DNA of 35,689 nt from the NCBI GenBank assembly GCA_903822595.1, contig CAIJPS010000037.1, positions 1 to 35,689 on the forward strand, read 5' to 3'. Origin of the DNA: an uncultured Chlorobiaceae bacterium (lineage in GTDB: Bacteria > Bacteroidota > Chlorobiia > Chlorobiales > Chlorobiaceae). Made by a program: the position numbers and the translations under genes. The notes under the pieces were generated by a model that was not told the DNA's origin, ran no database searches, and saw only the letters and a program-made list of their open reading frames with translations. This document shows, piece by piece, positions 3,383-6,273 of this stretch; within the stretch, counting starts at the first letter, position 1, and each line of letters opens with the position of its first letter.

Positions 3383-4720
3383 CTATACCCTGATTTTGCG
3401 TAAGAGTTGGCAGAAGCCGCCGTCAAAACCAGGATGTTCGCCTGGCAGGGTGAGGATTGCACCCTTTCCCTCATTGCTCTGCCGGAATGGTTCAGGGAGA
3501 TGCTCACCAACAGGAAGAGCAATAAAATCAGGGTGTCTTCTCAGAAATGCATCAATTTGCAAACTGTTTTCCTCAGGTTCAATGGAGCAGGTTGCATAGA
3601 CCAGAACACCATCCTCATTGAGTAGTTCCGCAGCATGATCGAGTAGCTCCACCTGCAGTACCAAGAGCTCACGCAGTGTTTCCGATGTGAGTTTCCAGCG
3701 CAGTTCAGCGCGCCGTCCAAGCACTCCGGTACCCGTACAGGGAGCATCGAGCAGAATGGCATTGGGTCGGATTTCAAGCGTAAAGCTTCGGGCATCCTCC
3801 GCTACGGCTCGGATGATGGTGATGCCAAGAGCCCTGGCATGAGATCCGATTTTTACAAGCTTCTGTTCATAGTGGTCAACAGCGATAATCTGGCCATTGT
3901 TTTCCATGAGCTCTGCCATGAAGGTAGCTTTGCCGCCAGGTGCTGCGCACAAGTCGAGCACATTGCTTCCAGGAGGCGGATTCAGCAGCAGGCATGCCAA
4001 GGCTTGCGTCGGGTTCTGAACGGTGAGGCGGCCGTCGATCACTGCGGGTTCAAAGGCGCTGAAATCCTTTGAGAGAAAGAAGTTTTCAATGCCGCTCTCT
4101 TCATGCATTGAGCCCGCCATTATCGGGTCGGAGAAAAACTGCCTTGCTGAATTTTTCAATCGGTTGATCCTGAATCCAAAAGAGGGGAACTGGTTGTTAT
4201 AGGAGAGGATAGTCTCGCATTTTTCTCTGCCGTAAACCTCGATCCACCTCTCAACGAGCCACTGCGGGTGTGAGTACTTTACGGCAAGCTGTTCTTCAAC
4301 TTTTTTCTCTTTCAGCCACTCCTCAAGGGTTACACTCTCTGGAGTGATTTTTCTCAAAACACCGTTGACCAGTTTCGACATTCGCTCACCCTTGTATTTT
4401 CTGGCAAGTTTTACGCACTCGTTGACGGCGGCCCAGTCGGGAACCTTGCTGAGGAAAAGAATCTGGTAGACTCCGAGACGGAGAATGTTTTTCATGACTG
4501 GCGCGGCCTTTTCGAGGTTATGATGGTAGAACCGTCCAATAATGAAATCAAGCTGAAACCGGTAGCGCAGAACTCCGTTGACCAGCCCTGTGGTGAGTGC
4601 CCGATCAATACGGTTCAATGCAGAGTTCTGCAGAGTCCGATGCAGGATCTGGTCAGATCGCTGTTTTCCGGTTTCAAGTGATTGCAGGACATGCAATGCA
4701 AGTTCTCGAGCTGTGGTCAT
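3383..4720 (-). CDS. rsmB: 16S rRNA (cytosine-967-C5)-methyltransferase RsmB
   Basis: 445 residues. An N-terminal NusB-like RNA-binding domain (about 1-140, with NRIDRALTTGLVNGVLR and DWAAVNECVKLARKYKG) precedes a Rossmann-fold RsmB/NOP2 methyltransferase domain. The SAM site is LDLCAAPGGKA (about 255-265). Two active-site cysteines are visible: C328 in LDAPCTGTG and C378 in VYATCSIEPEEN, the nucleophile and the releasing cysteine of m5C methyltransferases. The enzyme methylates C967 of 16S rRNA during small-subunit assembly. It is the first gene of a probable rsmB-xerD unit and is divergent from the riboswitch-metX region. Confidence 0.93.
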   Translation of the reverse strand: MTTARELALHVLQSLETGKQRSDQILHRTLQNSALNRIDRALTTGLVNGVLRYRFQLDFIIGRFYHHNLEKAAPVMKNILRLGVYQILFLSKVPDWAAVNECVKLARKYKGERMSKLVNGVLRKITPESVTLEEWLKEKKVEEQLAVKYSHPQWLVERWIEVYGREKCETILSYNNQFPSFGFRINRLKNSARQFFSDPIMAGSMHEESGIENFFLSKDFSAFEPAVIDGRLTVQNPTQALACLLLNPPPGSNVLDLCAAPGGKATFMAELMENNGQIIAVDHYEQKLVKIGSHARALGITIIRAVAEDARSFTLEIRPNAILLDAPCTGTGVLGRRAELRWKLTSETLRELLVLQVELLDHAAELLNEDGVLVYATCSIEPEENSLQIDAFLRRHPDFIALPVGEHLPEPFRQSNEGKGAILTLPGEHPGFDGGFCQLLRKIRV

Positions 4721-5187
4721 GGGTAATCATTAATAACAATTAAAATACATTGGCCCTTCAGGCTGCTTGTAAAATACTATTCCCTGTTGTAGATTAATCG
4801 ATATAAATGTTCTTTCGAAGATTTCAAGCTATCATCCAGAAAGGTGGAGGGACTGGCCCTGAGAAGCCTTGGCAACCGTCATTGCCACAATGAGCGGTGC
4901 CAATTCCATCCCGGAATAAAGGCCGGGAGTGATGATGGTATGCATGCCTTTCTGCCGGGTTCATACCTCTCTTCAGATATTTTCCTGTAACTCATTGCTC
5001 GTTAAGGGGTTATTTCTACACTTGCTGGTGGGGCTGTTGCAGTTTCCATTTGGTGTACCAGTATGGCCACAGCTCGCATCCACGGGAGTATGGAGGAGTT
5101 ACTGGCCGTCTGGATCTGCTCTTGCCGAGGATAGAATATATTGATGACAGTCAAGGCTGATTTTGAACAAGCTATTGTAAAACCGAG
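4721..5187. other. 467-base gap: SAM-I riboswitch plus decayed gene
   Basis: This interval holds the 5' side of rsmB (4721-4800, AT-rich, with no clear promoter that I can defend), the SAM-I aptamer (4829-4938), an expression-platform stretch of uncertain structure (4937-5040), and a frameshifted remnant of an O-acetylhomoserine sulfhydrylase gene up to the metX start. In the stretch just after the aptamer, GGTATG (4937-4942) can pair with CATACC (4962-4967). It shares two bases with the last aptamer helix, so the two structures may be mutually exclusive. No T-run follows, so a terminator is not established. Confidence 0.7.
4829..4938 (+). promoter_or_regulatory. SAM-I (S-box) riboswitch aptamer
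   Basis: The conserved S-box core GGTGGAGGGACTGGCCC is at 4843-4859, followed by GAGAAGCC and GGCAACC, and later by GGTGCCAATTCC. Helix P1 closes with CTATCATC (4829-4836) pairing with GATGATGG (4931-4938), eight pairs including one G-U. A P3 stem tip is TCATT/AATGA (4879-4883 with 4889-4893). P4 is CCCGG/CCGGG (4910-4914 with 4923-4927). The class senses S-adenosylmethionine and normally switches off methionine biosynthesis genes. Its target here is metX, 250 bases downstream, which fits. Whether control is by termination or by translation is not clear from this leader. Confidence 0.95.
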
Positions 5188-5191
5188 ATGA
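5040..5191 (+). pseudogene. metY: Remnant of metY (O-acetylhomoserine sulfhydrylase), 3' end only
   Basis: Reading across three frames gives pieces in the order expected for the C-terminus of the PLP-dependent O-acetylhomoserine sulfhydrylase: AST at about 5076-5084; SMEELLAV at 5087-5110; SGSA at 5109-5120; RIEYIDD at 5128-5148; KADFEQAIVK at 5153-5182. These pieces correspond to the family ending HPASTTH...EELLA.GV..G..RLS.GIE.IDDI.ADFEQA. Several small deletions and insertions separate them, and no open frame joins them. The remnant's final TGA (5189-5191) overlaps the metX ATG as ATGA, the usual junction of a metY-metX operon. The upstream piece (5010-5075) contains GGAVAVS but cannot be placed safely. 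No PLP-lysine region is left, so no enzyme can be made from this locus. Confidence 0.78.
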
Positions 5192-6273
5192 AGCGCATGA
5201 GAGCATATACGGAGATCATTTCCGAAAAAACACACTATTTCGACTCAAGTGAACCCTTTGTGACCGAGCTTGGAGGCCGACTCCCTTCGGTGCGGGTGGC
5301 TTACAGGACGTGGGGGAAGCTGAACGCCCGAAAAGACAATGTGGTGCTCATCTGCCAGGCTCTCACTGGTTCTGCTGATGCGGATGGCTGGTGGGAAGGG
5401 ATGTTTTCCCCCGGAGGCGCTTTCGACGAAAGTGTAGATTTCATTATCTGCAGCAATGTGCTTGGCAGTTGCTATGGTACGACAGGCCCGACCTCTCTCA
5501 ATCCTCTTACCAGACGTCATTACGGCCCCGATTTTCCACTGATCACTATCAGGGACATGGTTGAGGTGCAGCGTCTTTTGCTTGTCGGGCTGGGCATTGA
5601 GCGTGTCAAGCTTGTGGTAGGAGCTTCTCTTGGCGGGATGCAGGTTCTTGAGTGGGGAGCCCTCTACCCTGATATTGTTCAGGCTCTTATGCCGATGGGT
5701 GCTTCCGGCCGTCACTCCGCATGGTGCATAGCGCAGAGCGAAGCTCAACGGTGGGCGATTTATGCTGACCGTGACTGGAACGATGGATGGTACATTGATG
5801 GGCATCCTCCCGCAAAAGGGCTTGCCGCTGCAAGGATGATGGCCATGTGCAGCTACCGTAGCTTCGAAAACTTTCAGTCGCGGTTTGGCCGGGAGTTTCA
5901 TCACGGCACAACCTTTAAGGCGGAGAGCTACCTGCACCATCAGGGCCGCAAGCTGGTTGAGCGTTTTGATGCAAATACTTACATCACCCTTACCAAAGCG
6001 ATGGATATGCACGATCTTGGTCGAGGCAGGGGAGTCTATGAGGATGTTTTGCGCTCCATACAGCTTCCGGTGGAAATTCTCTCCATCAATTCTGATATTC
6101 TTTATCCAAAAGAGGAGCAGGAAGAGCTTGCACGGTTTATGCCGAAATCAAGTATTCTCTACCTTGACGAACCATACGGCCATGACGCTTTTCTTATTGA
6201 TGTTGAAAAGGTAAGCCGTATGGTCAGGGGATTTCTGGACGGGAGGGCTTTGCAGGCTCACTCCGCAGCCTGA
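5188..6273 (+). CDS. metX: Homoserine O-acetyltransferase MetX
   Basis: 361 residues, alpha/beta-hydrolase fold. The nucleophile elbow GASLGGMQ places the catalytic serine at S147; the rest of the triad is D303 (INSDILYPK) and H332 (YGHDAF). The segments [13 protein letters not shown] and [14 protein letters not shown] are typical of the MetX family. It transfers an acetyl group from acetyl-CoA to homoserine, the first committed step of methionine synthesis by direct sulfhydrylation. The ATG at 5188 overlaps the stop of the decayed metY (ATGA), and ATG 5197 is a weaker alternative. No good ribosome-binding site precedes either start, consistent with past translational coupling to metY. Expression is probably controlled by the upstream SAM riboswitch. 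Its 3' end overlaps the converging serS gene by 16 bases. Succinyl- rather than acetyl-CoA specificity cannot be excluded from sequence. Confidence 0.92.

Follow-up and report, generated by a model that had tools for sequence, protein, structure and literature searches.

The closest described relative of the leader analysed here is the SAM-I (S-box) riboswitch (Rfam RF00162). SAM and SAM-Chlorobi motifs are both listed in PMC3766115, whose main text names neither metY nor metX, and we found no papers on a riboswitch-metY-metX operon in Chlorobium. Among Chlorobiaceae relatives such an operon is present at loci L078 and L074, where the riboswitch is followed by a metY of about 1.3 kb and then by metX. 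L088, from another family of the order, shows this order of parts as well, as did the ancestral form of our locus. Beyond the genus, several families of the order have the riboswitch a short distance upstream of metY, and metX is sometimes found on another contig, from which metY is probably the older partner of the riboswitch.

The window, a stretch of 35,689 nt (contig C37, CAIJPS010000037.1), comes from the genome of an uncultured Chlorobiaceae bacterium (G000, GCA_903822595.1; 3.04 Mb, 97.6% complete). Its locus has the order of parts and the metX start region of L078 and L074. In contrast, metY is reduced to about 110 nt, and the distance from the GGCAACC motif to metX is 317 nt versus 1477 nt in the intact sister. 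The riboswitch of this locus has thus outlived the first gene of its operon. A preliminary description made from the DNA letters had come to this view; its observation was right and its interpretation mostly so.

The aptamer is located at 4829–4938 (this and the following features of the window are on the plus strand, except indicated otherwise). It matches RF00162 over the full length of the model with 86.9 bits, well over the gathering score of 44.4, and stands before methionine genes, as other members do. By sequence and structure score it is an intact member of the family, as had been claimed, and SAM binding is predicted from this match. What sets it apart is that a relic stands in the place of the first gene. 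Across the order, the aptamer passed the RF00162 threshold in 27 of the 31 genomes.

The aptamer is followed by a conserved hairpin, GGTATG...CATACC (4937–4967), which folds in nearly all relatives, with intact metY as well as with relics, and is the probable expression platform. Its first two or three bases also belong to the 3′ strand of the aptamer helix P1; RNAalifold chose P1 and left the hairpin unpaired. The likely switch, we infer, would be a competition of this hairpin with P1. The textbook S-box arrangement was not recovered for the readout hairpin and terminator of the window. Among the leaders of relatives no strong universal terminator was found, U-tailed and possibly terminator hairpins being present in some species only. 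A leader hairpin located about 110–135 nt past the GGCAACC motif shows a compensatory change between L101 and L102, its arms being GTCAGG/CCTGAC at one of these loci and GTCAGC/GCTGAC at the second.

Between the hairpin and the relic lies a spacer (4968–5081). In alignment with the intact L078 and L074, its first part matches the former leader of metY as far as roughly the lost start; beyond that point it becomes unalignable, and it holds the deletion scar. The metY relic itself (5082–5191) measures about 110 nt and represents the final ~35 codons of a gene for an O-acetylhomoserine sulfhydrylase of 430 aa, with one 1-nt insertion; it ends at the old stop TGA. Local DNA alignment of the last ~120 nt of the L078 metY with positions 5082–5187 gave a score of 95, compared to a maximum of 26 in 1000 dinucleotide shuffles and a best score of 26 in samples taken elsewhere in the window. 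The tblastn comparison with MetY proteins, which the preliminary description had suggested as a check, was marginal (best E 0.14, not significant alone) and looked weak although the claim of a remnant is right by DNA alignment; the proof of the relic therefore rests on this alignment and on synteny.

The frameshifted 3′ remnant proposed earlier is thus real, but it runs through two frames instead of three: translation of the relic gives REYGGVTGRLDLLLPRIEYIDD, followed by the insertion near 5150 and by a second frame to the old stop. The peptide SMEELLAV, previously taken for a piece of MetY, is read in a frame which is not that of MetY, the homologous reading being REYGGVTGRLDLLLPRIEYIDD. About 90% of metY is missing which, together with the frameshift, breaks the enzyme reading frame. 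Being homologous to the intact metY that sister species carry at this position, and lacking an enzyme frame, this stretch is a pseudogene. Comparable relics could be aligned in three sister species (L103, L079 and L090). An assembly error was rejected as the cause, since four species share comparable scars and a further thirteen carry different ones.

The metX gene (5197–6273) is intact and encodes a homoserine O-acetyltransferase of 358 aa (NCBIfam NF001209, 392 bits, cut-off 331; 433 bits with the stricter TIGR01392, under its cut-off of 500). Its identity across the genus is 71–92%, and its genus-wide neighbours are rsmB upstream and serS downstream, both on the opposite strand to metX in the window. 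The old metY stop (TGA, 5189–5191) overlaps an ATG at 5188, as in L078 and as noted in the preliminary description. However, this ATG is less likely the start than that at 5197, which appears to be the conserved one (ATGAGAGCATAT in most members of the genus).

Translational coupling of metX to a translated metY is indeed lost in the window. The same cannot be said of the ribosome-binding context, whose loss had also been proposed: the ~35 nt before the metX start carry about 3 differences from the intact sister, and a strong Shine-Dalgarno was found in neither of them (−3.5 and −3.2 kcal/mol). The stretch before metX (5155–5196) has been retained and is a probable translation-initiation region; in the four-species clade of the window, 29 of its 42 columns are invariant versus 53 of 167 in the spacer (Fisher p 1.5e-5).

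Instead of a dead gene, the interval between riboswitch and metX might be a functional leader peptide or a small coupling ORF. A 15-codon ATG ORF (5144–5191) ends in the window at the old metY stop, and in L084, where metY has been cut to a 5-codon frame (ATG AGC AAA GGC GCA TGA), the stop overlaps the metX ATG. Nevertheless, the window ORF is a frameshift product that exists solely through the 1-nt insertion; it is not shared by the three sister species with relics and is probably accidental. Moreover, no ORF ending near the metX start was found in the relic loci L103, L079, L093 and L101, and coupling is thus apparently not required. We regard a functional peptide or ORF as very unlikely. 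In L072, L087 and L097, a 2-nt deletion fuses the reading frame of metX to the tail of metY (e.g. FEQALQNDMKRMR), possibly giving an N-terminally extended MetX.

The state of metY was compared across the family, using genomes which are nearly all metagenome assemblies. Among 31 distinct Chlorobiaceae loci, metY is intact in 13 and a relic in 17, and the remaining one (L095) breaks off at its contig end; metY is also intact in L088 and L089, from another family of the order. Both aptamer and metX are kept in all 17 relic loci. In L078 (genome G009), whose MetX is 90% identical to that of the window, a complete 430-aa metY lies in the same place between riboswitch and metX, consistent with the former arrangement proposed from the window. 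On a tree of rsmB, serS and metX, the relics require five changes (the window clade, a ten-species clade, L084, L085 and L101), a count which leans partly on weakly supported deep branches, namely that of L085 and those which set how the clades of the genus core branch off.

Since most species of the genus core carry a relic, one could imagine that metY was lost only once, long ago, and that recombination restored it wherever it is now present. The scars argue otherwise, as the deletion ends differ between clades: the metY remnant is about 110 nt in the window clade and about 35 nt in the ten-species clade, while in L084 only a few bases remain besides the start codon (the 5-codon remnant above) and L101 carries a different scar again. 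AU tests rejected both the grouping of all relics in one clade (p-AU 0.0002) and that of the window clade with the ten-species relic clade (p-AU 0.0013). The MetY gene tree, weakly resolved in the genus core, recovers the supported groups of the three-gene tree; it is compatible with L078 and L074 at their genome positions and gives no sign that L078 regained metY from elsewhere. Loss followed by regain thus appears very unlikely. Rather, we consider it likely that four or five independent deletions in Chlorobiaceae left riboswitch and metX in place, with both the switch and the start region of metX untouched, and that SAM control was repeatedly narrowed to the acetyltransferase, with sulfhydrylation falling to paralogues without that riboswitch.

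We then compared divergence along the leader. In the four-species clade of the window, it amounts to 0.058 for the aptamer and 0.075 for the hairpin, versus 0.386 at metX fourfold sites (codon alignment); the spacer diverges by 0.32, with 12.7 indel columns per pair. An aptamer divergence of about 6% compared to 39% at fourfold sites indicates that the riboswitch is still under selection, which now presumably acts for metX. In the larger clade, a comparison of four close species showed conservation along the entire leader (6.5% in the spacer and 7.6% in the tail, compared to 29% at fourfold sites). Conservation of both the leader and the metX-proximal tail is expected if the leader controls metX and the metY end doubles as the metX start region.

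The riboswitch could alternatively be a leftover with no effect on metX, which would be expressed from its own promoter or constitutively. Such a reading is favoured by the disappearance of metY, the gene linked to the riboswitch in much of the order, and by the free drift of the spacer in the window clade. It is difficult to reconcile with a divergence of 6–8% for aptamer and hairpin against 39% at fourfold sites, or with the aptamer surviving in 17/17 relic loci. In addition, no promoter-like site was detected at 4700–5260, in a crude scan which found none upstream of the aptamer either. We therefore judge an idle riboswitch unlikely, and control of metX by the spared leader remains the preferred reading.

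As anticipated in the preliminary description, the genome encodes other candidate sulfhydrylases: two MetY paralogues, both intact, encoded on contigs C2 and C64 (590 and 616 bits, respectively, with TIGR01326, cut-off 495), and two proteins of MetB/CGS type. The C2 and C64 proteins belong to the family of the lost gene's product and presumably catalyse the same reaction. They differ from it in being only about 50–55% identical, in lying at other loci and in having no detected SAM riboswitch in front; this low identity led us to reject a move of metY elsewhere in the genome. The C2-type gene lies near cysK and cysE and is present in 18 of 19 genomes of the genus, the exception being a genome 85% complete. 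The C64 type (G000:C64:18091-19401) is rare: it is present in G000, G012 and G014, fragmentary in G002 and G006 and apparently decayed in G010. A link between metY loss and the C64 type was not clean, since the gene is whole in G000 and G012, which carry relics, but also in G014, where metY is intact. One of the two MetB/CGS-type genes, resembling MetB/cystathionine gamma-synthase (C43:23104-24237), is preceded by a second SAM riboswitch with a weaker score (G000:C43:22804-22948, 145 nt, 52.9 bits), which is found in most of the genus. Import of methionine, the alternative suggested earlier, need not be invoked: the genome has metH, and a search of it for the MetQ lipoprotein family found no member, so that methionine is probably made rather than imported.

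Taken together, these results give us high confidence that metY was lost by deletion, that the spared riboswitch leader most likely still controls metX and that homocysteine presumably comes from a MetY paralogue. The ancestral operon was SAM-I riboswitch-metY-metX. As alignment with the intact sister shows, an internal deletion of about 1.2 kb in the ancestor of the four-species clade removed metY from near its start up to roughly the final 35 codons. It spared the aptamer, the downstream hairpin and ~40 nt before metX, parts which, as their divergence shows, remain under purifying selection. At high S-adenosylmethionine the leader would most likely lower metX expression, as expected from its family, and may thus now govern a single gene, the one for O-acetylhomoserine synthesis, which is the committing step. 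The C2-type paralogue, whose gene is present, would supply homocysteine, possibly helped by the second MetY (C64) or by the MetB-type enzyme (C43) with its own SAM riboswitch, genes that are likewise present and whose activities are predicted from their families. Redundancy of the riboswitch-linked metY would explain why it was lost about five times.

The loss of metY is in itself ordinary gene decay, of interest for its recurrence and for the consistent survival of the switch. It also carries two warnings: labelling this leader as a metY switch would be wrong, and so would calling these bacteria unable to make homocysteine. The Chlorobiaceae loci form a natural series of one operon with and without its first gene, in which one can see the parts that persist once a riboswitch has been deprived of its principal target, namely the aptamer, the hairpin that follows and the region where translation of the downstream gene starts.
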